In this document: piece by piece, positions 28,925 to 43,724 of the stretch | Layout: each line of letters starts with the position of its first letter | Numbering within the stretch: the stretch's first letter is position 1 | Assembly: GCF_011682235.2 (NCBI RefSeq) | Contig: NZ_CP076718.1 | Location: forward strand, 1,424,827 to 1,488,826 | Source: Rhodocaloribacter litoris | Lineage (GTDB): Bacteria > Bacteroidota > Rhodothermia > Rhodothermales > ISCAR-4553 | Direction of reading: 5' to 3' | DNA: 64,000 nt | The notes under the pieces: generated by a model | Told to the model about the DNA's origin: nothing | The model's input: the letters and a program-made list of their open reading frames with translations, nothing else | The model's database searches: none | Position numbers and translations under genes: made by a program

Positions 28925-31900
28925 CTAATAGGCATACTCCCATTTGAGGTTGACGCGTATGACGGCGCCGCGCCGCAGCAGCCGGATCAGGAGCCGGTCG
29001 ATCACTTCGTATTCCAGCGTCACCTGGGTGGGCACTTCTTCGCCGAAGGCAGTACCACTCTGCCGGAAGGCGATGGGCTGGCTGATGGCGACGTAGAGGC
29101 GGGGAGAGACGTACTTGCCGGCCGTCAGGGTGGCCCCTTCGAGCCCGTTCTGTTCGATCTCGATCACGTCGAGCCCGAGGCCGGTGCCGGCCAGGTTCTC
29201 GATCAGGCCGGCGATCTGGCCGAGTGCCAGCCCGGCCGCCGGGTCCAGCAGCGATGAGCCGCCGCCGCCGGACCGCCCCAGTTGCAGGGCCTCCCCGGCC
29301 GGCCGCCCGAAAGCCAGATAGGAGACGATGTCGGCGAACTCCATCTGGGGATCCGAGCCCAGCGTCACGTCCAGCTCGTCGAGCCGTCCTTCCACCGACA
29401 ACGTGATCGTGACCTCATTGGCGCTGCTGCCCCGGGCCCGCACCACGTACTGCGCCTCGATGTCCATGATCGGGTCGGTGGCCGGCCCGTTGAAGGTGAG
29501 CGTGCCCTGCTGGATGTCGAACCGCTTGCCGAACTGGATGATGCGGCTGCGCTCGGGGATGACGGCAATCGTCCCGAAGACGAGCGGATCGCCGTAGGGC
29601 TGTTTCTGCACCTCCAGGTTGCCCGTGAACTGCACGTCCATCGTGGGGTTCTTCTTGGACCGCAGCCACGTGTCGCGTTCCATACGCACGCGCAGGTTGG
29701 TGATCGTGAGCGCCTCGTAGAAGTCGAACGTGGTGGTGTCGGCTTCGGTGAGCCGCAGGCCGAAGCGCCGTTCGAGGGTCTGCAGGTCCTCTTCGGCCAG
29801 GCGAACCGTTTCGAAGTCCTCGCTGGTGACCTCCTCGGTCAGGAAGATGTCGGCGCTGACGAGTTCGACGTCGCCGCTGAGGACGGGGCTGCGCGTGGTG
29901 CCCTGCAGGACCAGGTCGGCGGCGGCGCGGGCGCGATAGGCCCGCGAGTCGATGGCGAGGAAGTTTTCGGCGCTGAGGCTGAGGTCGAACGCCCCGAGGG
30001 TCAGCTGGGAAAAGTCGATCGTGCCGTGCCCGATCAGGGTGCCGCCGCCGGAGTGGGCTTCCACATGATGGACGAGGATCTGGTTTCCCTGCAGTTCCGC
30101 CTCCAGGGCGATGCCGGAATAGACGAGGCTGCTGCGGGGTCGTCCCAGCAGGGGCAGCCCGAGGCGCCCGTCGCGGACGAAGGCGGTGCCGGCGAAGACG
30201 GGTTCCTCGAAGGTGCCTTCGACCCGGACGTCGGCGGTGAGGCGCCCCTCCAGCACATCGACCAGCTCGCGGTCCATGAAGGGCATGAGCCAGTTGAGGG
30301 CGAAGTCGTCCGTCACCAGGGTCAGGTCGACGCGGCGGTCCGCGGCGGTCTCGCCGGTCCGGCCGGCGGCCAGGCGCAGGTCCATCGGCAGGGAGCCGCC
30401 CAGGGTGAGGGCGCTGCCGTGCTCGTCGGTCAGGCGGGCTTCGAGGGCCAGGCGCAGTTGTTCGTAATGCAGGGTGGCGGTCATGTCGCCGACGGCCTCG
30501 CCGGAGAGGGTCAGGTCGAAGTCGAGCGAGCCGTCGGCCACCGGGTCTGCGGGTGTTCCTTCGAGCACGAGCCATCCGTCGAGGCGGCCGCCGAGCCCCT
30601 GGTAGCCCAGCAGGTCTGCCACGGCGCCGAGCCGGAAGCGCTCGATCGTCAGGATGAGGCTCTGCGTCCCGTTCAGGTCGATCTCGCCATCGAGTGCGAT
30701 CTGCTGCGTAATGTCGCCGTCACCGGCTTCGCGGGCATACAGGAGCAGGTTGCGGATGCGGTAGCGTCCCTCGCCGTAGTCGAGTGTGGCGGGCTGCTGG
30801 AGCCGCCACCGGTCCCGGTCGAACCGGAAGTAGAGGGTGTCGAGGGTGAGGCGGCTCTGCCCCGGCACCAGGTCGATCGAGCCCCCGATGAAGCCGTCCC
30901 GTCGCCGGTCGAGCCGCGTGTTGACCTCGAAGTCGAGGGCCTCGGGCCGGTACGTCGCCTGGATCCGGGTCTGCTCGACGGCCAGGGTGGGCAGGGAGAA
31001 AAAGTCGATGCCGGAGCGCAATTCGGCCCGGGCCAGACGCCGGTTGCGGTCGAACTCGCCCAGCAGGCGTGCCTCCAGCCCGGCGACCCGCACGTCGTTG
31101 TAGACGAAGCCGCTGAGTGTGAGCCGGGTATCGAAGCGCAGCGTGCCGGGCCGCCCCGCCAGGCGTCCTTCGAGGCGCCCGCTGCCCAGCAGCAGCCGCT
31201 GCACCCCGACGAGCGGCTGGAGCGGGTAGGCCGCCACGAGGTCGGCGGCGAAGACAAAGTCGGAGGCGTGCACGCCGGCCGTATCGAAGAGGGCCACGGG
31301 GCCGTAGCCGTGCAGCGTGCCGACGTTGGACTGGAGCACGAGCGTGTCGACCCGGGCGAGGCCCTCGTGGAGGGTGAAGCGGGTATAGGCCGAGTCCAGC
31401 ACCACCTCGTGATACCGGCTCGGGCCGAGGGCGAGCCGGCCGTCGAGGCGCATCGTGGCCGGGTCGAGCCCTTCCCCTTCGACCTCGAAGGCGAGGTTGA
31501 GCCCGGCCCGGAGCGTGTCGAGGCCAGCGAGGCGCCCGAGGTCGAGGCGTTGCGCCCGGCCCCGCGCCGTGAAGGTGGGGCGCTCGCCGGAAAAGCGCCC
31601 GGCGGCGTCGAGCCGGACGTCCCCGCCGGCCACCTCGAAGCGGGCCGTGAGACGGGCCTGCCCGCCGTCGACTTCCGCTTCCAGGGTTCCGCCCGGCAGG
31701 TCAGCCGCATTGATGCGCGAGGCGTCCAGGTCGAGCCGGGCTGCGAGGTGCATCGTGGCCGGGTCGAGCCCCCGCCCTTCGAGGGTGAAGCGGCCATTGA
31801 GGTCGGTGCGGGCGCCTTCCCGGCCCAGAAAGGCGCCGGCGTCGAGCCCGGCGAAGGCGCCCGTTCGAACGACGTAGACGGGCGTGCCGGTGAGGTCGCG

Positions 31901-34138
31901 GGCCGTGCCGGCAACCTCGGCATAGCCTTCCGGAAGGTCGAGTGCCAGGCGATAGGCGAGGGTGTCGGCGGACCAGACCGCCTGCAGGGTAGCGCTGCGG
32001 AGGTGCTGTGCGTTGATGCGCGAGGCGTCCAGGTCGAGCCGGGCTGCGAGGTGCATCGTGGCCGGGTCGAGCCCGCGCCCTTCGAGGGTGAGGCGGCCGT
32101 TGAGGTCCGTCTCGAAGTCCGGCCTCCGGGCCAGCGCACGAAGATCGACGTGCCGGAAGGCGACCTCGTCGAGGGTGAAGGTCGGGGTGGCGGCGAAGGG
32201 CCGCATGTGGCCGTCGAGTGTCACCGTGCCGCCCCGCAGGCGGGCCTCCGCCGCGAGGCGCAGCACCCCCTGCCGGAGGGAGGCACGCGCCTCCCCTTCT
32301 TCCAGCGCATAGACGCCGTAGGAGGTGTTCCGGAGGCGGGCCTCGGCCTGGAGATCGAGCGTGGCGGGGCTGGCGCCGCGTCCTGCCAGGGTGAACGTCC
32401 CGCTGAGGGTGCTGCGGGTGGTGTCGCCGTCCTGCGTAACGACCGGGTATCCGTCCGGCCCGGCAAGGAAGGCCAGGTAGTCGAGGTTCTCGACGCGACC
32501 CCGCTGTACCTCGTAGGCCGGCGTGTCGCCCAGGCGGAGCCGCCCGGCGACGTCGAGGGAGCCCTCGGCCGTAGCAAGGTGGGTTTCGAAGGTGGCCGTG
32601 CCGGCGAGGAGCCGGGCCGTGAGGCGCCCCTGTTCGATCCGGGCGGCGCCCACGGTGGAGGGATCGAGTACGAGCCGGGCGGTCAGGTCGGCGGTCCGGG
32701 GGTCGAGCCCGCGCCCGGTGAGCCGGAGCGTGCCGCCGAGGGTGCCCGTGCGGGTCGAGTCGCCGGTGAAGCGCCGGAGGTCGAGCCCGTGCACGGCGGC
32801 CGTGAGGTCGTAGGCTGGCACGTCGTCGAACGGGCGCAGGGTGCCGCGCACGGTGAAGCCCGTGCCGCGCACCCCGGAATCCAGCACGAGGCGGGCCTGA
32901 CCGTCGTCGAACGTGGTTTCGAGCGTGGCGCGGTCGATCCGCTCGCCCGCCAGGCGGGTGTCGGAGACCGTGGCGCGGAGCATACCGGCCAGCCGGTCGA
33001 GGGCCGGGCCGTGCAGGTCTGCGTGCACCTCGCCCTGCAGGAGGGCTTCGACGTCCGGTCCGGCATACCGGCTGAGGTCGAGCCCGCGTACCTGCGCGTT
33101 CACCTGGTAGCGCAGCGAGTCGGCCAGGCGGGGGGTGAGCCGCCCGTCGAGCCGGATCGTCCCGCCGTCGGAAGTCTGCACGGCAACGCTGAGGGTCGTC
33201 AGGTCGAAGGTTCCCCCCGCCCGCACCGCGCCGGTCATGGTGAGCCGGGGGTCCAGGGTGGGGACGAAAAGGGCAACGTCGCCCAGATGCAGGGGGTCGG
33301 CGGCCAGCGTGAAGTCGAGGCTGTCGGGTCCGGGGGGGGCGCCGAACCGGGGCAACACCCCGCGGGCCGTGAGGCGGCTCCGGTCCGAGACAAGTTCGAG
33401 CCCCCGGAGCTCCAGGCGATGCAGGCCAAGCTGTGCGCCAAGCCGCAGCGTAACGGGGGTGTTCAGGCCTGGCGGGACGAACACGCCCGAGAGGGTGTCC
33501 AGGCTACCCATGATGGCACCGGCCACCCGGAGGCTGTCCATCCGCACGTCCAGCCCGCCGAGCACGAAGAGCGAATCCCGTCCGGGTGCGTAGAACCGTG
33601 CCCGTGCCTGCCCGCCCCGCAGGTGAAGCCGATCGATGATCACCGAGAACGCCGGGGTCGCCGTATCCGGCGCCGTCGTGTCAGCCGGCAACACGTTGAG
33701 GAGGTTCCAGGACGCATCCTCCTGCTGTGCCATCGACACGGCCGGGTTCACCACCTCGATCCGCTCGAAATGGAGCGTCTTGCGGAAAACAGGCCAGAGC
33801 CTGTAGTGCGCCGTCACGGTGTCGACGTGGACCAGCCGGAGCGTGTCGCCCTGAACCAGTTCGACGTCGTAGAGCGTCAGGCGGGAGATCAGGTTGCCCT
33901 GCACACGCCCGACCTCGACGTGCGCCCCTTCGAACAGGCTGAGGCGGTCCAGCACGAAACGCACCATCCGGGTGGCGCCCCACTCCGTCTGAAAGAGAAG
34001 CAGCACAAGCGCGAGCAGACCGAGCACCCCGCCCAGCCCCCATCCCACCCCGCGCACCAGCCACCGGACCACACCCGGGCGGGGAGGCGGGCCGGGGTCG
34101 GGCACCTCGGGCGAAGGCAGGGAGCGGGAACGATTCAT
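28925..34138 (-). CDS. tamB: TamB-like translocation and assembly protein (DUF490) with internal repeats
   Basis: About 1737 residues. An N-terminal membrane helix (VVRWLVRGVGWGLGGVLGLLALVLLLF, about 24-50) is followed by an AsmA-like start, a long predicted beta-helical groove and the DUF490 C-terminus (FGRPAGEAL to the final WEYAY). Proteins of this group bridge inner and outer membranes and move phospholipids or assist outer-membrane protein assembly. Between about residues 470 and 910 a 100-110 residue unit repeats five times, marked by GRGLDPATM-like motifs (near 481, 591, 695, 796, 896); the units at 695 and 796 are almost identical. No tamA/bamA gene is adjacent. Start at ATG 34138; an ATG 30 bp upstream is possible. 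Confidence 0.9.
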   Translation of the reverse strand: MNRSRSLPSPEVPDPGPPPRPGVVRWLVRGVGWGLGGVLGLLALVLLLFQTEWGATRMVRFVLDRLSLFEGAHVEVGRVQGNLISRLTLYDVELVQGDTLRLVHVDTVTAHYRLWPVFRKTLHFERIEVVNPAVSMAQQEDASWNLLNVLPADTTAPDTATPAFSVIIDRLHLRGGQARARFYAPGRDSLFVLGGLDVRMDSLRVAGAIMGSLDTLSGVFVPPGLNTPVTLRLGAQLGLHRLELRGLELVSDRSRLTARGVLPRFGAPPGPDSLDFTLAADPLHLGDVALFVPTLDPRLTMTGAVRAGGTFDLTTLSVAVQTSDGGTIRLDGRLTPRLADSLRYQVNAQVRGLDLSRYAGPDVEALLQGEVHADLHGPALDRLAGMLRATVSDTRLAGERIDRATLETTFDDGQARLVLDSGVRGTGFTVRGTLRPFDDVPAYDLTAAVHGLDLRRFTGDSTRTGTLGGTLRLTGRGLDPRTADLTARLVLDPSTVGAARIEQGRLTARLLAGTATFETHLATAEGSLDVAGRLRLGDTPAYEVQRGRVENLDYLAFLAGPDGYPVVTQDGDTTRSTLSGTFTLAGRGASPATLDLQAEARLRNTSYGVYALEEGEARASLRQGVLRLAAEARLRGGTVTLDGHMRPFAATPTFTLDEVAFRHVDLRALARRPDFETDLNGRLTLEGRGLDPATMHLAARLDLDASRINAQHLRSATLQAVWSADTLAYRLALDLPEGYAEVAGTARDLTGTPVYVVRTGAFAGLDAGAFLGREGARTDLNGRFTLEGRGLDPATMHLAARLDLDASRINAADLPGGTLEAEVDGGQARLTARFEVAGGDVRLDAAGRFSGERPTFTARGRAQRLDLGRLAGLDTLRAGLNLAFEVEGEGLDPATMRLDGRLALGPSRYHEVVLDSAYTRFTLHEGLARVDTLVLQSNVGTLHGYGPVALFDTAGVHASDFVFAADLVAAYPLQPLVGVQRLLLGSGRLEGRLAGRPGTLRFDTRLTLSGFVYNDVRVAGLEARLLGEFDRNRRLARAELRSGIDFFSLPTLAVEQTRIQATYRPEALDFEVNTRLDRRRDGFIGGSIDLVPGQSRLTLDTLYFRFDRDRWRLQQPATLDYGEGRYRIRNLLLYAREAGDGDITQQIALDGEIDLNGTQSLILTIERFRLGAVADLLGYQGLGGRLDGWLVLEGTPADPVADGSLDFDLTLSGEAVGDMTATLHYEQLRLALEARLTDEHGSALTLGGSLPMDLRLAAGRTGETAADRRVDLTLVTDDFALNWLMPFMDRELVDVLEGRLTADVRVEGTFEEPVFAGTAFVRDGRLGLPLLGRPRSSLVYSGIALEAELQGNQILVHHVEAHSGGGTLIGHGTIDFSQLTLGAFDLSLSAENFLAIDSRAYRARAAADLVLQGTTRSPVLSGDVELVSADIFLTEEVTSEDFETVRLAEEDLQTLERRFGLRLTEADTTTFDFYEALTITNLRVRMERDTWLRSKKNPTMDVQFTGNLEVQKQPYGDPLVFGTIAVIPERSRIIQFGKRFDIQQGTLTFNGPATDPIMDIEAQYVVRARGSSANEVTITLSVEGRLDELDVTLGSDPQMEFADIVSYLAFGRPAGEALQLGRSGGGGSSLLDPAAGLALGQIAGLIENLAGTGLGLDVIEIEQNGLEGATLTAGKYVSPRLYVAISQPIAFRQSGTAFGEEVPTQVTLEYEVIDRLLIRLLRRGAVIRVNLKWEYAY
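31710..31804 (-). repeat. Internal DNA repeat in tamB, copy A
   Basis: About 95 bp that recur at 32013-32107 with three differences, 303 bp (101 codons) apart and in frame. They encode the stretch ending in MHLAARLDLDASRINA. Near-identity also at synonymous sites indicates recent duplication or gene conversion. Confidence 0.85.
32013..32107 (-). repeat. Internal DNA repeat in tamB, copy B
   Basis: Second copy of the repeat at 31710-31804. A third, diverged unit lies around 31440-31490, and weaker ones near 32360 and 32690. Confidence 0.85.
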
Positions 34139-34396
34139 GCGACGGGGACCGGGCCGGTTATACGCCATCGTGGATGCTTCAAAGCTACAGCAGCCGGTTC
34201 AGTTTCCACCGGGCATGACCGGCACAACCGGCCCGGCCGGATCGCGTTCCCCCGCCGAACGCGGCGGGGGCCTTCATCCGCCCCGGCCCGAAGCGCGAGA
34301 CGATCCCTGCGGCCTGCATACCTGCCCCCGCCGTGCGTATCTTATGCACGTTGAACCCGCTCCCCCTCACATCCGGCGCCCGGGCGCCCCTTCCCC

Positions 34397-35560
34397 ATGT
34401 CTCGCCTGTTCCCCGGTCTGGCCGTGGCCCTGCTGGTGCTGGCTGCCTGCCAGCGGCCGGAGCCGGCCGCTCCGGAGACCCGCACCGACACGACCACCGT
34501 TTCTCCGGACACGACCCGCACCGCCCGGGTCGACACGGCCACGGTGGCCCCGGCCGACACGCTGGTCACCCGGCTCCCCGGGCCGATCTCCCCGGAAACG
34601 CTCGACAGCCTCCGCCGGGAGATCGAAGCCCTGCGCACCCTCCTGGCCGACCGGGAACGCCCGGCCCGGCCGGACACCACCCCCCGGGCCGCCACCGCCG
34701 ACACCCTCTCGGTCGGGACCCGCCTGCGCACGACCGCCGAAGGACTCGAATACATCGGCCTGCGCGTCACCTTCGCCCTGCTCGTGCTCGTGGTGACCTT
34801 CTTCGCCATCAAGGGGCTCGTATGGCTCTTCGACACGCTGGCCGAGCGGAGTGCCACCCGCCGCCTCCTCTTCAAGAAGCTCATCCCGATCACCCGGCTC
34901 CTCATCTGGACCCTCACCCTCTACTACATCATCGCCGTCGTTTTCTCCATCAGCGAGAGCCAGCTCTTCGCGGCTTCGGCCGCCTTCGGCGTGGCCGTCG
35001 GTTTTGCCGCCCAGGACGTGCTCAAAAACATTTTCGGAGGCCTCATCATCGTGCTCGACCAGCCCTTCCAGGTCGGGGACAAGATCAGCGTCGGCGGCAC
35101 CTACGGCGAGGTCGTCTCCATCGGCCTGCGCTCGACGCGCATCGTCACGCTCGACGACAACCTGGTCTCCGTGCCCAACTCGCAGGTCGTCGACGGGCAG
35201 GTGGCCAACGCCAACGCCGGCGCGCTCGACTGCCAGGTGGTGACGCACCTGTACCTGCCCGGCTGGGTCGATGTGAAGAAGGCCAAAGAGATCGCTTACC
35301 GCGCCGCCGCCACCTCGAAATACGTCTATCTGGACAAGCCCATCGTGGTGATCGTCCGGGACGAGTTCAAGGAGACGTTCCTGACCCACCTCGTCGTCAA
35401 GGCCTACGTGATCGACACGCGGTACGAGTCCGCCTTTTCGAGCGACGTGACGGAGCAGGCCAAGACCGAGTTCCTGCGCCACGGCATGCTCGTACCCTTT
35501 TACCGCCCGGCCCCGATAGGCGACGGCGGTCCCACCGGCAAAGCCTCCGAAACCCCATGA
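34397..35560 (+). CDS. MscS-family mechanosensitive channel with lipoprotein-type signal
   Basis: 387 residues. The N-terminus reads as a lipoprotein signal: MSRLFPGLAVALLVLAAC with lipobox LAAC and Cys18, then a Thr/Asp/Pro-rich linker (about 24-60) and a helical segment (70-90). The MscS core begins at about 117: membrane helices, the pore helix (AAFGVAVGFAAQDVLKNIFGG) and the beta domain (LDQPFQVGDKISVGG; STRIVTLDDNLVSVPNSQ). Since MscS N-termini face the periplasm, lipid anchoring is topologically possible but unusual. The stop overlaps the ATG of the next gene (ATGA), so channel and ATPase are translationally coupled. It is divergent from tamB. Confidence 0.88.
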   Translation: MSRLFPGLAVALLVLAACQRPEPAAPETRTDTTTVSPDTTRTARVDTATVAPADTLVTRLPGPISPETLDSLRREIEALRTLLADRERPARPDTTPRAATADTLSVGTRLRTTAEGLEYIGLRVTFALLVLVVTFFAIKGLVWLFDTLAERSATRRLLFKKLIPITRLLIWTLTLYYIIAVVFSISESQLFAASAAFGVAVGFAAQDVLKNIFGGLIIVLDQPFQVGDKISVGGTYGEVVSIGLRSTRIVTLDDNLVSVPNSQVVDGQVANANAGALDCQVVTHLYLPGWVDVKKAKEIAYRAAATSKYVYLDKPIVVIVRDEFKETFLTHLVVKAYVIDTRYESAFSSDVTEQAKTEFLRHGMLVPFYRPAPIGDGGPTGKASETP

Positions 35561-38500
35561 ACGAGCACAGCCCTCCCGTACCCGGGGAGGTCGCCGGCAC
35601 GGCCGCCTCCGACCGCCTGCTGCCGGTAGCCCCCGCCGACCCGTCCCGGCTCGCAGCCGCCGAGACGGCACGGCGCCACCTCGAGGCGCTCGAACGGGCT
35701 GCGCGGCAACAGCGGCAAGAAGCATACGACGCCATCGAGCGGGACCTGCTGGCACCGCTTCGGAAGAGCGTTCGCCGGGTGGCCAACCGGCATGCCCGCC
35801 TGACGGCAGAAGCCGGCCTCAACGACGGAGCAGACGCCCCGCCGGGCGACGTCTGGGACCGGTTGCTGGCCTACCGGGCGGCGACGGGACGGGAGGTGCT
35901 GCAGGCGCTCCAGCACAGCCTCACGACGCTGGCCCCCGGCGAGCGGATCGGCGCGGCGTTCCTGAACCTGCTCGAAGCGCTGCCCGGCCTGGCCGCCGAC
36001 GTACCCGCCCTGGTGACCCTGCCCGAACCGCCCGACCTGCACGCGCCCGATCCCCGGGACACGCCGGCCGTCCGGCTCAAGAAGAGGATCCTGCGCGGGC
36101 GGGACGCCCTGCGACGGCTCGGGCTCCGGGCCGGCAACGGGATCCGGCGGCTGCTGCGACGTCCCCTGCACCCGCTACCCGCCCGGGACCGGCAGGTACC
36201 GCTGGCGGCCCTGTGCGAATACCACCTGCGGGTTCGCCTCGCCGGGCTGTACCTGCCCGCGCACGAACACCTGCAACAGCACGTCGCCCGGCAGGTGGCC
36301 CGGCTGGAGGCGGCCGTCGCGGCATGGACCGATACCCTCCTGGAGATCGAGGCGCTGCGGGGCGCGTCCCTGCCGGGGGATCCCTCCGGCCATCCGGCCC
36401 GCCCCCGATGGCCCGACTGGGCCCTTCCCGCTCCCCCGCCCGCACCGGACCGGCACCCGGACGAAGCGGCCCACCACCGGGCGCTGCGGCTCGCCCGTGA
36501 GGCGGCCGCCACCCTGCAGGATGGCCTGCAGGCCCTGGCCGGGGCCGAACCCCCGGCATCGCCGTTCGACGAGGCGGAACTCCAGGCGGCCGGCTCGCTG
36601 CTGGCCCGGGACGTCCGCTACGCCGGCACGATGCTGCTCGACCCCGGGCAACGCCGCCTGCCGGAACCCGCCGGCCGCCCGGACGCCCGGCTCCGGGACC
36701 GGCAACGACGGTGGGCCGCCTGGCACACGCAGGCCCGCAACCGAATCGAGGCCGGGCAGCACCTGGTCGCCCTGTACCACGTGCTGCTGCACGCGGAAAC
36801 CGGCCTCCTACAGGAGACGGCACAGGCCACCCTGGTTCCGGTCTTCGAACGGTTCACCTCCATGTTCGAGCGCCTACGCGCGGCGATCGCCCAGGTCGAA
36901 GCGCTGCCTGCCGGGGCCGGTGGCGAGCCGGCCCGCCTGGCCGAGGCGCTGCGCACCCTGCAGGAAGCAACGCTGGCCGACCTGCAGGCGTCGCTGGCCG
37001 ACCTGCCCGGCGTCGTCGCTTCCGACCAGGCGCTTCTGGAGCCGGGAGCCCGCATATGGAAAGAGCTCCTGGCCCATCTCGACACGCTTCCCGAGGAGCT
37101 GGAGGTGCACCCGCTGCCGGCGCCCGACCACCGGGAAGACCCGCCGGTTCAGCCCGGGCAACGCACCTTCCGGATCAACCTGCGCGAGCTCGCCGGCCAG
37201 GCGCTTCCGGCACCTTATCCGGAACGCCTGCACGCGGCCGCCGAGCCGCTGCGGCAGAAGCTCGTCCGGACCTGGCGTGACGTCGAGGGGGTGCTGCACA
37301 TCGTGCAGTACAACCTGGAGGCCGCCCTGGATGAACTCGACGCGCAGCCCGGAGAGAAGACCGACGCCGACGACCGGCCGCATGACCCGGTGGCGACCGC
37401 ATGCGACCTGGCCGCCGGAGGACTCCGCCGTGCCGCCAACACCCTCGCCGCCCTGGTTTCCGACCTGAGAGAACCGTGGCAGGCCTACGAACAAGAGGTC
37501 TTCCGCACCTTTGCCCGGGACCGGGACCTCCTGCTGCGCCAGGTGCGTGCCGCCGGGGCTCCGGAAGCACCGTGGGTCGAACTGCTGGCCCGGCTACGGC
37601 GTGGCGGGGGCTACCTGTACCGGCGGACGCGAACGGCCGCCGGGCAGCTTGCCGAACGTACCCGGCTGCTGTTCCGGCTGGGCCGGCGGCACGCCCGGGA
37701 ACTCCGGCAACAGGCCCAGACGGTCGTGGGCATCGCCACGGCCGACGCCGAAGCCCAGGCCCGCACGCTGGACGCCCTCACCCACCTGGCCCCCCTCCAG
37801 GAACGCCTCCCGCTCATCTACCGCAAGCTCTTCGCCCTCGCCCCGCTGGCGGAACCCTTCCTGCTCGAAAACCGCACACACGACCTCGAAGCCGCCCGTC
37901 GCCACTTCGAGCGCTGGCGACAGGGCCGCCAGGGCGAACCGCTGATCGTCGTGGCGCCGCCAGGGGCCGGCCGCACCAGCTTCCTGAACGTCCTGCCACA
38001 CACGGTCCTGCAACCGGCCGACGTCCGGCCGCTTGCGCTCGAGCGGCGCCTGACGGATCCCGCAGCGCTGGCGCAGTGCCTGGCCGGCGTCCTCGAACTC
38101 GACCTCGACGCGCCCCCCTCACTCGAGGCCCTGGAAGCCGCCCTGCTGGCCCGCACCCGCACCGACCCGCCGGTGGCCTGTCTGATCGACAACCTCGAGC
38201 ACCTGATGCTCCGCACCCTCAACGGCACCGACCTGCTCGAACGCCTGCTCATCCTGTTCGCACGTACCGACGGCCGGATCTACTGGGTCGCCACCATCAA
38301 CGCCCATGCATGGCACTACCTGGGCAAGGTAATCCCTTCCACCACCGGCCTGGCCTCGGTGCGCGCGCTGACCCCGTTCGACCGGGACACCCTCGAAACC
38401 CTCATCCTGAGCCGGCATCGCCGCAGCGGCATGCCCCTGCGCTTCATCGCCCCGGAGGCCCACCCCAGGCGCACGCTCCCGCGTCTCCTGCGCCGTTCCC

Positions 38501-38955
38501 GAACGGACGAGGAACAGCAGGCCGCGCTGCGCCGCCAGTACTTCGACCGGCTCCACCGCTCCAGCGGGCAGAACCTCCGGCTGGCACTCTTCTACTGGCT
38601 CCGCTCCGCCGACTTTGAGGCCGACGGCGACACCCTCACGATCCGCCCCCTCGAACCCCTCGACTTCGGCTTCCTGAACACCTATGACCTGGGCCGGGCC
38701 TTCAGCCTGAACGCTTTCCTGCTGCACGGCACCCTCACCCTCGACGAGCACAACCGCATCTTCCGCCTGTCGGAAGAAGAGGGCATCCTCATCCTGGAGT
38801 CCCTGCTCAACCAGCGGGTCATCGAACCGGTGCCCGCCGGCCGGCAGGACGGCGTCGATGCCAGTCGTATCCACCCCGCCCTCCGGTATCGCCTCCACCC
38901 CCTCCTGCTCCACCCCGTCACCGAATCCCTGCGGGCCCGGCGCATCGTGTACTGA
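35557..38955 (+). CDS. Large helical protein with C-terminal AAA/STAND-like ATPase domain, coupled to MscS
   Basis: 1132 residues from the ATG at 35557, which overlaps the mscS stop. Residues 1-740 are Ala/Leu/Arg/Glu-rich and almost wholly helical, with coiled-coil stretches; no known domain is recognised. A P-loop domain follows: Walker A-like APPGAGRTS (near 798-808; Arg where Lys is usual), Walker B-like CLIDNLEHL (near 874-880; Asn after Asp), a sensor-like YWVATIN, and a C-terminal winged-helix-like region (IFRLSEEEGILILESLLNQRVIEP). There is no signal peptide or membrane helix, so it is cytosolic, the side on which the MscS beta domain lies. I infer a channel-associated ATPase or switch. 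Function is unknown. Confidence 0.7.
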   Translation: MNEHSPPVPGEVAGTAASDRLLPVAPADPSRLAAAETARRHLEALERAARQQRQEAYDAIERDLLAPLRKSVRRVANRHARLTAEAGLNDGADAPPGDVWDRLLAYRAATGREVLQALQHSLTTLAPGERIGAAFLNLLEALPGLAADVPALVTLPEPPDLHAPDPRDTPAVRLKKRILRGRDALRRLGLRAGNGIRRLLRRPLHPLPARDRQVPLAALCEYHLRVRLAGLYLPAHEHLQQHVARQVARLEAAVAAWTDTLLEIEALRGASLPGDPSGHPARPRWPDWALPAPPPAPDRHPDEAAHHRALRLAREAAATLQDGLQALAGAEPPASPFDEAELQAAGSLLARDVRYAGTMLLDPGQRRLPEPAGRPDARLRDRQRRWAAWHTQARNRIEAGQHLVALYHVLLHAETGLLQETAQATLVPVFERFTSMFERLRAAIAQVEALPAGAGGEPARLAEALRTLQEATLADLQASLADLPGVVASDQALLEPGARIWKELLAHLDTLPEELEVHPLPAPDHREDPPVQPGQRTFRINLRELAGQALPAPYPERLHAAAEPLRQKLVRTWRDVEGVLHIVQYNLEAALDELDAQPGEKTDADDRPHDPVATACDLAAGGLRRAANTLAALVSDLREPWQAYEQEVFRTFARDRDLLLRQVRAAGAPEAPWVELLARLRRGGGYLYRRTRTAAGQLAERTRLLFRLGRRHARELRQQAQTVVGIATADAEAQARTLDALTHLAPLQERLPLIYRKLFALAPLAEPFLLENRTHDLEAARRHFERWRQGRQGEPLIVVAPPGAGRTSFLNVLPHTVLQPADVRPLALERRLTDPAALAQCLAGVLELDLDAPPSLEALEAALLARTRTDPPVACLIDNLEHLMLRTLNGTDLLERLLILFARTDGRIYWVATINAHAWHYLGKVIPSTTGLASVRALTPFDRDTLETLILSRHRRSGMPLRFIAPEAHPRRTLPRLLRRSRTDEEQQAALRRQYFDRLHRSSGQNLRLALFYWLRSADFEADGDTLTIRPLEPLDFGFLNTYDLGRAFSLNAFLLHGTLTLDEHNRIFRLSEEEGILILESLLNQRVIEPVPAGRQDGVDASRIHPALRYRLHPLLLHPVTESLRARRIVY

Positions 38956-38967
38956 AGGGGCGGAACG

Positions 38968-38996
38968 AAAAAGGACGCCCCGGATGTGGGGCGTCC
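38968..38996 (-). terminator. Rho-independent terminator of rpoD
   Basis: A 9-bp stem GGACGCCCC/GGGGCGTCC (38973-38981, 38988-38996) with a 6-base loop, followed on the minus strand by TTTTT (38972-38968). It sits between convergent genes and may also slow transcription from the plus strand. Confidence 0.85.
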
Positions 38997-39057: not shown

Positions 39058-39897
39058 TCAACCGATGTGCATCTGGAGTTCCTCGCGGCGGTGCTTCTGG
39101 CGGAGCTTGCGCAGGGCTTTCTCTTTGATCTGCCGCACGCGCTCGCGCGTGAGGCCGAAACGCTGGCCGATCTCCTCGAGCGTGAGCGGGTGCTCGCGGC
39201 CGATGCCGAAGTAGAGGCGGGTGATTTCGGCCTCGCGCGGGTGGAGCATGCTCAGGGCGCGCTCGATGTCGATCTTGAGCGATTCGTCCATGAGCGTCTC
39301 GTCGGGCGAAGCGTCCTCGTCGTCCGGCAGCACGTCGAGCAGGCTGTTGTCGTCCTCCTCGTTGAAGGGCGCGTCCATCGAGAGATGGCGGCCGGTGTGC
39401 TGCATGGCCTCCCGGATCTTCTCCACGTCCACATCGAGTTCCTCGGCCAGCTCCTCGATGTTGGGCTGGCGCTCGTGGACCTGGGCCAGCTTGGCGCTGG
39501 TCTTGCGGATCTTGGAGATCGTGCCGATGCGGTTCAGCGGCAGGCGGACGACGCGGCTCTGCTCGGCCAGGGCCTGCAGGATGGCCTGCCGGATCCACCA
39601 GACGGCGTAGGAGATGAACTTGAAGCCACGCGTCTCGTCGAAGCGCTGGGCCGCTTTGATCAGGCCGTAGTTGCCCTCATTGATCAGGTCGGCGAGGGTC
39701 AACCCCTGGCCCTGATACTTCTTTGCGACGGAAACCACGAAGCGCAGGTTGGCCCGGGTCAGCTTGTGCAGGGCCTCCTGGTCGCCCTGCTTGATCCGAC
39801 GCGCCAGTTCTACTTCCTCATCAGGGGTCAGCAGGGGTATCTGACCGATCTCCTGGAGATACTGATCCAGCATGCGTTGCTGGCGGGGGACGTACAT
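39058..39897 (-). CDS. rpoD: Primary RNA polymerase sigma factor (sigma-70/RpoD)
   Basis: 279 residues, the short Bacteroidota form lacking region 1.1 and the large non-conserved insert. Region 1.2 ([19 protein letters not shown]), region 2 ([52 protein letters not shown]), region 3 and region 4 ([29 protein letters not shown]) are complete. It directs housekeeping transcription. It is monocistronic: a strong terminator follows, and about 180 bp separate it from the GH3 gene upstream. Confidence 0.97.
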
Positions 39898-42803: not shown

Positions 42804-42929
42804 GCGGGACACCGCCACGGCCGTGCGCCCCCCCGACGTGAGGAGGCCGCTCAAAATCCGCATGCGGCCGTCCCAAATCGGGCACAGGTGCCTTATCTTG
42901 CGCCGGACTGCCGCCCTACCCGCATCGCC

Positions 42930-43724
42930 GTGACGATCATCCCCTGGGTCATACCGATACGGCTTGTCGACCTGCTGGAGATCGGCCTGGTGGCCTATCT
43001 CCTGTACAAGCTGTACCTGCTGATGCGCGGCACGATTGCCGTGCAGATCTTCTTCGGGATCCTGGCGCTCTACCTGATCCAGGTGCTGGTGACGGCGGCG
43101 AACATGACCATCCTGCGGGCCCTTTTCAACTCGATCAGCGATGTCTTCGTACTGGCCCTCATCATCCTGTTCCAGCCCGAGATCCGGCGGGTGTTGCTGC
43201 TGCTCGGCCAGAACCCGCTCATTCGGCGCTTCGTGCGCTCGCCGGCCCAGGAGGCGATGATCGGGGAGGTGGTGGCCGCCGTGGCCGAGATGAGCAAGCG
43301 CCGCATCGGGGCCCTCATTGCGTTCGAGCGAACGACGGGCCTGCGCAATTACATCGAGACCGGGGCGGAACTGCAGGCCAAGGTGACCAAGGACCTGCTG
43401 ATCACCCTCTTCTTCAACCAGAACCCGCTGCACGACGGGGCTGTCATCATCCGCAGCCAGCGCATCGAGGCCGCCCGGTGCATCCTGCCGGTTTCGACGA
43501 GCATGTCCCTGAGCCCCCACCTGGGCCTGCGGCACCGTGCCGCTGTGGGACTGACCGAGCAAACGGATGCGTTCGTGGTGGTCGTCTCCGAGGAGACGGG
43601 ACACATCTCGGTCGCCCGGAACGGTGAGCTGATCCAGAACATCACGGTTAACGAGTTGCGTTCGTATCTTACCGAGGCGCTCTCACCGCAGTCGGCGGCC
43701 GAGACCGAACCGGCCGAGGTCTGA
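42930..43724 (+). CDS. cdaA: Diadenylate cyclase CdaA (c-di-AMP synthase)
   Basis: 264 residues from GTG 42930; a GTG 42 bp upstream would add 14 atypical residues. Three N-terminal membrane helices (about 5-80) precede a DisA_N domain with catalytic motifs DGA (LHDGAVII) and RHR (GLRHRAAVGL). It makes the second messenger c-di-AMP from two ATP, controlling ion and turgor balance. The neighbour folP is the usual one in this phylum; no CdaR-type regulator is present. It lies 31 bp ahead of pcm. Confidence 0.94.
   Translation: MTIIPWVIPIRLVDLLEIGLVAYLLYKLYLLMRGTIAVQIFFGILALYLIQVLVTAANMTILRALFNSISDVFVLALIILFQPEIRRVLLLLGQNPLIRRFVRSPAQEAMIGEVVAAVAEMSKRRIGALIAFERTTGLRNYIETGAELQAKVTKDLLITLFFNQNPLHDGAVIIRSQRIEAARCILPVSTSMSLSPHLGLRHRAAVGLTEQTDAFVVVVSEETGHISVARNGELIQNITVNELRSYLTEALSPQSAAETEPAEV

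Follow-up and report, generated by a model that had tools for sequence, protein, structure and literature searches.

The window, by which we mean the whole stretch of 64,000 nucleotides analyzed here, contains a gene for an MscS-family channel (P0001) that is followed directly by a much longer gene for an NTPase-like P-loop protein (P0002). A preliminary description of this DNA had proposed that the mscS stop codon and the start of the 3399-bp downstream gene overlap, and this holds: the ATG at 35557 and the TGA at 35558 form an ATGA overlap. We assigned the following features.

34397..35560, + strand: mscS gene, MscS-family channel (P0001), 387 aa; PF00924 at 1.8e-20; PDB relatives MscS, YnaI and MscM
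34397..34450, + strand: signal peptide with lipobox LAAC (residues 15-18, Cys18); from the sequence and a lipobox survey of relatives
35015..35215, + strand: MscS beta-domain, residues 207-273; Pfam PF00924 match
35557..35560, + strand: ATGA shared by the mscS stop codon and the NTPase start codon; from the sequence
35557..38955, + strand: NTPase-like P-loop gene (P0002), 3399 bp, 1132 aa, soluble
35641..37647, + strand: conserved helical module of ~660 aa, residues ~29-697; AlphaFold model and cross-clade profile match
37807..37833, + strand: family signature LPLIYRKLF, residues 751-759; L751, P752, Y755, L758 and F759 invariant in 32 sequences
37957..37980, + strand: degenerate Walker A PPGAGRTS, residues 801-808, with Arg806 instead of Lys; column survey
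38173..38199, + strand: Walker B-like strand VACLIDNLE, residues 873-881; column survey, model strand 873-878
38413..38430, + strand: RHxxSG motif, residues 953-958; column survey, Arg953 invariant in 89 of 89 aligned
38668..38952, + strand: winged-helix-like C-terminal domain, residues ~1038-1132; models and Orc1/Cdc6-type matches
38973..38996, + strand: strong hairpin 3' of the operon, before the convergent sigma factor gene; RNA fold z -2.5

The unit is flanked by the divergent tamB gene, which starts at 34168, and by a convergent gene for an RpoD-like sigma factor (39058-39897). The hairpin at 38973-38996 was not among the sites listed by a simple terminator scan. The NTPase reading frame is open far in the 5' direction through mscS (mechanical ORF of 1540 aa, 34333-38955, + strand), and we favor the start at 35557 over this longer frame because mscS/NTPase overlaps are seen in relatives. 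The tamB homologue (28925-34168, - strand, 1747 aa) has near-identical internal repeats (GRFTLEGRGLDPATMHLAARLDLDASRIN), and the open frame of 1690 aa antisense to it (29282-34354) is probably a high-GC artefact.

P0001 matches the MscS beta-domain PF00924 with 73.2 bits against a curated cut-off of 20.2, and its best PDB relatives align over about 250 residues (~112-369). Hydropathy analysis detected the signal peptide and two segments (starting near residues 120 and 162) before the beta-domain, while TM3 is visible only via the alignment to solved MscS. The channel had been described as lipidated, and P0001 indeed carries the LAAC lipobox; by a simple strict rule, the motif is present in 18 of the 37 MscS proteins encoded upstream of their NTPase gene (mscS-first clade) and in 2 of the 47 from NTPase-first loci. 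Judging from these motif counts, lipidation is not general in this paired MscS family. The host genome has eight MscS-domain loci, and hence P0001 need not be the main osmotic valve.

The NTPase-like partner

P0002 lacks a TM segment, with no 19-residue stretch exceeding a hydropathy of 1.6. The full-length AlphaFold model, built with 32 sequences, has a mean pLDDT of 84.7 and consists of helices from residue 29 to ~697, a weak stretch at 670-729 and then the P-loop domain; the C-terminal 402 residues modelled alone reached a pLDDT of 92.4 and a pTM of 0.89. Both models match Orc1/Cdc6 proteins best (E 2.6e-9, Foldseek probability 1.0), and the archaeal Walker-type ATPase 2qen is also among the matches. 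Whole-chain TM-scores are only ~0.4-0.5, so the resemblance to Orc1/Cdc6 is one of fold and not of membership. The C-terminal ~400 residues are thus modelled as an Orc1/Cdc6/STAND-like AAA+ core with a helical lid and a winged helix, which agrees with the earlier proposal of a STAND/AAA-like switch made of a P-loop domain with an Arg-containing Walker A, the Walker B-like sequence LIDNLE and a winged-helix-like end. In LIDNLE (residues 876-881), no catalytic Glu comes behind the Asp. As many of the ORC/Cdc6 proteins that match best were solved on DNA, one could imagine that P0002 controls the transcription of its own operon. We consider such a role highly improbable, because fusion to transporters anchors homologues at the membrane (see below) and winged helices also occur in STAND proteins that do not bind DNA.

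Database searches assigned P0002 to no known family. No Pfam or NCBIfam model matched above its curated cut-off (AAA_22 scored 21.8 bits against a cut-off of 27), the sequence alone had no match among solved structures, and a family profile retrieved from these nothing beyond helical-bundle proteins and weak P-loop matches. The objection that P0002 might represent a known orphan family with an unrelated role is thus not borne out by these searches. About 740 residues before the P-loop domain had been called unassigned and helical. They are helical (~29-697) but not featureless, as they contain a conserved module in its own right: a profile made from NTPase-first unfused proteins found the module of P0002 at 1.6e-18 and that of an antiporter-fused homologue (L080) at 2.4e-21, with the best reversed sequence at 1e-4. 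By this profile comparison, the helical module is homologous across the architectures. It can also be lost, as the short versions in L051, L055, L056 and L067 (frames of ~440 aa, with MscS) keep the NTPase domain only.

A column survey of 89 sequences showed that none of the 40 mscS-first members has the Walker A Lys, compared with 39 of the 46 NTPase-first members. Of the mscS-first proteins, 28 have Arg at this position, and the remaining ones have Leu, Met, Ala, Val, His or Gly. Directly behind the acidic residue of Walker B, most sequences have N, G, S, H or D in place of the usual catalytic Glu. Other positions are near-invariant (LPxxYRxLF, G890, R953-H954-xx-S957-G958 and W1014), which shows that the NTPase domain is under constraint. 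Going by what is generally known of Walker A variants, we read the loss of Lys to mean that hydrolysis is probably not required in the mscS-first clade. Hence, the term ATPase is doubtful for P0002, and the earlier description of the regulator as nucleotide-driven is weakened, as all 40 members of its clade lack the residue. The same loss counts against ATP-driven gating in this clade.

An AAA+ fold and translational coupling would also fit a factor that folds, assembles or places the MscS heptamer or the transporters, possibly co-translationally and without gating them. We regard this as quite unlikely, since a hydrolysis-driven chaperone cycle is not expected in a clade that has lost the Lys throughout, and a permanent fusion to a transporter would be unusual for a chaperone.

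Conservation and order of the gene pair

We asked whether the two genes are kept together, searching one genome per species. The NTPase was found in 55 of 296 genomes of the phylum, and nearly all of the 40 neighborhoods fetched there have an adjacent co-directional MscS gene, the rest being contig ends. Among the 114 genomes of the window's order, 42 encode the NTPase and 40 a P0001-type MscS (53-70% identity, E <= 1e-96, compared with E >= 1e-32 for every other MscS of the order). All 40 are within the 42, the two genomes with the NTPase only are cut at contig ends, and both genes are absent from the other 72 (Fisher p ~1e-28, uncorrected for kinship). For both gene orders, every readable neighborhood has an adjacent co-directional MscS. 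Where the channel appeared to be missing, a contig border is near the missing side (L034, L040, L077, L096, L097, L099, L105, G321 and G359) or the NTPase gene ends in a 100-N assembly gap (L102).

Scanning genome contigs, we found the NTPase family together with MscS in Rhodothermota, Balneolota, other Bacteroidota, Ignavibacteriota, Gemmatimonadota, Acidobacteriota and Myxococcota. The pair also occurs in a MAG labelled Gammaproteobacteria; this member falls with those of Gemmatimonadota, and the MAG may be mis-binned. The two genes thus form a real unit that is conserved over several phyla, and the objection that relatives might not keep the pair together fails. Chance adjacency and an orphan ATPase were rejected on the basis of the co-occurrence and by the adjacency in all intact neighborhoods.

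The mscS-first order found in the window corresponds to one side of a branch with 100% support in both the NTPase tree and the MscS tree, and in all family members outside this clade the NTPase gene comes first; both trees come from quick searches and have long branches among the deepest members. When the paired MscS proteins were placed on a tree with 19 unpaired paralogues, pairing required 2 changes, compared with 17.6 in shuffles. The distance from the mscS stop to the nearest NTPase start is negative in 29 of 38 mscS-first loci and exactly -4 in 19, counts that are approximate owing to the nearest-start rule. That adjacency persisted although the gene order was inverted points to a functional linkage. 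The two genes are linked; physical gating of MscS by its partner would be a further step, and a conserved operon can reflect mere co-expression.

Transporter fusions and Trk operons in distant relatives

Homologues in Ignavibacteriota, Acidobacteriota and Myxococcota have ~1500 aa and begin with a CPA-type Na_H_Exchanger domain (1e-18 to 3e-24). In L104 this region was found only by a pairwise profile to another member, and the protein of L052 has a membrane-like N-terminus with no family match. Homologues of ~1700 aa (L053, L054, L134 and L135) have instead an N-terminus which we take to be SLC12-like, based on the AA_permease match (1.2e-49 for L053) and our own reading of the C-terminal domain; a profile built without these four detected their NTPase domain with E-values of 3e-45 to 9e-55. 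L134 and L135, which belong to the same order, together with L053 and L054 represent a second, divergent family member, in which a short MscS-like gene comes after the fusion gene. Besides its SLC12-like fusion, the L135 genome (G215) has a window-type pair.

Genes for TrkA and TrkH adjoin the gene for the ~1500-aa CPA-type form in 13 of 15 loci; of the two exceptions, L101 begins inside the gene and L098 has no Trk gene within the flank examined. Where the flanks allow, the order is CPA-like, TrkA, TrkH, CPA-NTPase fusion, MscS in Acidobacteriota, Myxococcota and L052, and CPA-like, CPA-NTPase fusion, MscS, TrkH, TrkA in the Ignavibacteria-type loci. In L036, TrkH and TrkA are encoded ~5 kb upstream of an unfused pair. 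The small CPA-like operon partner (L048, 11386-12627, - strand; L100, 366-1703, + strand; L104, 970-2289, + strand) had no Pfam match at 0.01 and may belong to an undescribed CPA sub-family. The only lead from the literature is a Myxococcus protein that was assigned to a novel CPA2 subfamily (PMC3924187); this protein may be the same as the small partner or a different one.

The Balneolaceae and mscS-first forms are not fused to a transporter, and in these clades MscS is the sole constant neighbor. The window shares with the Trk/CPA/MscS operons the homologous helical module, the NTPase domain and the adjacent MscS; exemplars of TrkA, TrkH and CPA had no match within its 64 kb, and the two TrkH genes of the host genome are situated outside it. 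Some Balneolaceae have a peptidase M49-like gene downstream of the pair, which is not widely conserved. In the window, the pair is followed ~4 kb downstream by a gene for a cdaA-type diadenylate cyclase (42888-43721, + strand; DAC 2.2e-44, CdaA_N 1.1e-12), which lies next to folP. L031, L032, L036 and L111 likewise have the folP-cdaA block downstream of their pair, and L034 has folP there. The product c-di-AMP is a known K+ regulator, and the proximity may be a functional lead or plain synteny.

The transporter fusions and Trk operons provide the osmotic and K+ context for the earlier suggestion that the pair is stress related. The suggested role in defense was not supported. A STAND- or AAA-like plan with a long sensor-like region next to a pore protein could be that of an anti-phage system, in which the sensor triggers MscS to depolarize or kill the infected cell, and nSTAND1 is a sub-threshold Pfam match for one relative. 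PADLOC had no match for P0002, phage and plasmid sequences contained no homologue, inheritance is clade-wise and the partners are transporters of K+, Na+ or Cl-. We therefore rejected this role as unlikely and give it very little credence.

A possible role in turgor control

MscS and the NTPase-like domain are present throughout, and the helical module accompanies them in nearly all cases. What varies is the ion transporter that is fused or adjacent, and all of these transporters move K+, Na+, H+ or Cl-. The simplest interpretation is that the system regulates turgor and cation balance, with a release channel as its target and, in the deeper forms, transporters as well. Because the module is built, in these deeper forms, into a CPA antiporter or SLC12-like cotransporter, often beside TrkA and TrkH, we infer that it controls both solute release and ion transport. 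Our favored interpretation, which we consider reasonably probable, is that the pair consists of a channel and its dedicated regulator, serving osmotic and K+ homeostasis. P0001 would be the release pore and P0002 its soluble cytosolic partner, with the long helical module contacting membrane proteins and the C-terminal part, including the winged helix, acting as an NTP-binding switch of the Orc1/Cdc6/STAND-like type. Such a partner could read a cytosolic signal (a nucleotide, ions or crowding) and hold ion transport in the state opposite to that of solute release through MscS. In the window's clade, which lacks the transporter part and has lost the Walker A Lys, P0002 would probably act on MscS by binding a nucleotide, or as a non-hydrolyzing switch or scaffold. 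That P0002 touches MscS directly, which signal it senses, which way control runs and which architecture came first are inferences.

Alternatively, the genes may form one osmotic-stress unit that is merely co-regulated in a fixed ratio, with the NTPase acting on antiporters or Trk and never touching MscS. The deep forms are fused to transporters and not to MscS, and the gene order is inverted between clades, as this explanation would allow. It is unlikely, though, considering that MscS is the only constant neighbor in the mscS-first and Balneolaceae clades and that both genes were gained or lost together in the window's order.

A bolder form of the channel-regulator hypothesis, possible rather than probable, is an undescribed turgor system in which the Orc/STAND-like module physically bridges the MscS valve and CPA, SLC12-like and Trk transporters and switches between uptake and release. 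Rhodothermales would then have reduced it to a channel and a non-hydrolyzing switch, possibly reading ATP or c-di-AMP.

We found no description of the MscS-NTPase pair or of the transporter fusions in the open-access full-text literature, and neither is represented in Pfam, NCBIfam, PADLOC or, by sequence, the PDB, in line with the earlier remark that no characterized system was known to have this layout. We rate the parts as known kinds and the system as new, that is, MscS with a dedicated Orc/STAND-like partner that is elsewhere built into antiporters and cotransporters. It would be less than categorically new if the partner were just another TrkA-like nucleotide-binding subunit of K+ transport. 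To our knowledge, bacterial MscS channels are seen as tension-driven valves without dedicated NTPase partners, whereas this MscS sub-family was never found without one particular NTPase-like protein among the genomes searched. Gating or tuning of these transporters by the partner, if it occurs, would amount to a new mode of coordinating the release of solutes with the uptake of ions. With its reduced two-gene form, the pair lends itself to a direct test of this idea, and the Lys-bearing and Lys-less clades offer a built-in test of the need for hydrolysis.

Several known systems share features with the pair. P0001 resembles E. coli MscS, YnaI and MscM/MscK in the beta-domain, the TM3-like pore segment and the cytosolic cage region (~250 residues), and differs from them by its N-terminal lipobox/signal peptide and long linker, its separate clade and its fixed NTPase-like partner. 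P0002, as modelled, has the P-loop core, helical lid and winged helix of Orc1/Cdc6 and STAND NTPases of the AAA+ superclass; unlike these, it has no profile match above cut-offs, has lost the Walker A Lys, and combines a ~660-aa helical module with an ion-transport context. Prokaryotic SLC12-like cation-chloride cotransporters form the N-terminus of distant P0002 relatives, which differ from plain cotransporters by an extra helical and NTPase extension of ~900 residues and by the MscS gene downstream. The bCNG-type channels, ligand-gated relatives of MscS, embody the same idea of a cytosolic nucleotide-responsive module that controls an MscS pore, but their cyclic-nucleotide domain is fused to the channel, whereas here the candidate module is a separate Orc/STAND-like protein. 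Finally, TrkA/KTN (RCK) and Kef-type proteins are described as cytosolic proteins that bind nucleotides and regulate K+ transporters and antiporters (PMC2920069, PMC10224563). TrkA and TrkH themselves are encoded in the operons of the deeper relatives, but P0002 differs from these regulators in that its predicted fold is AAA+-like and not Rossmann, and in that it is tied also to a release channel.
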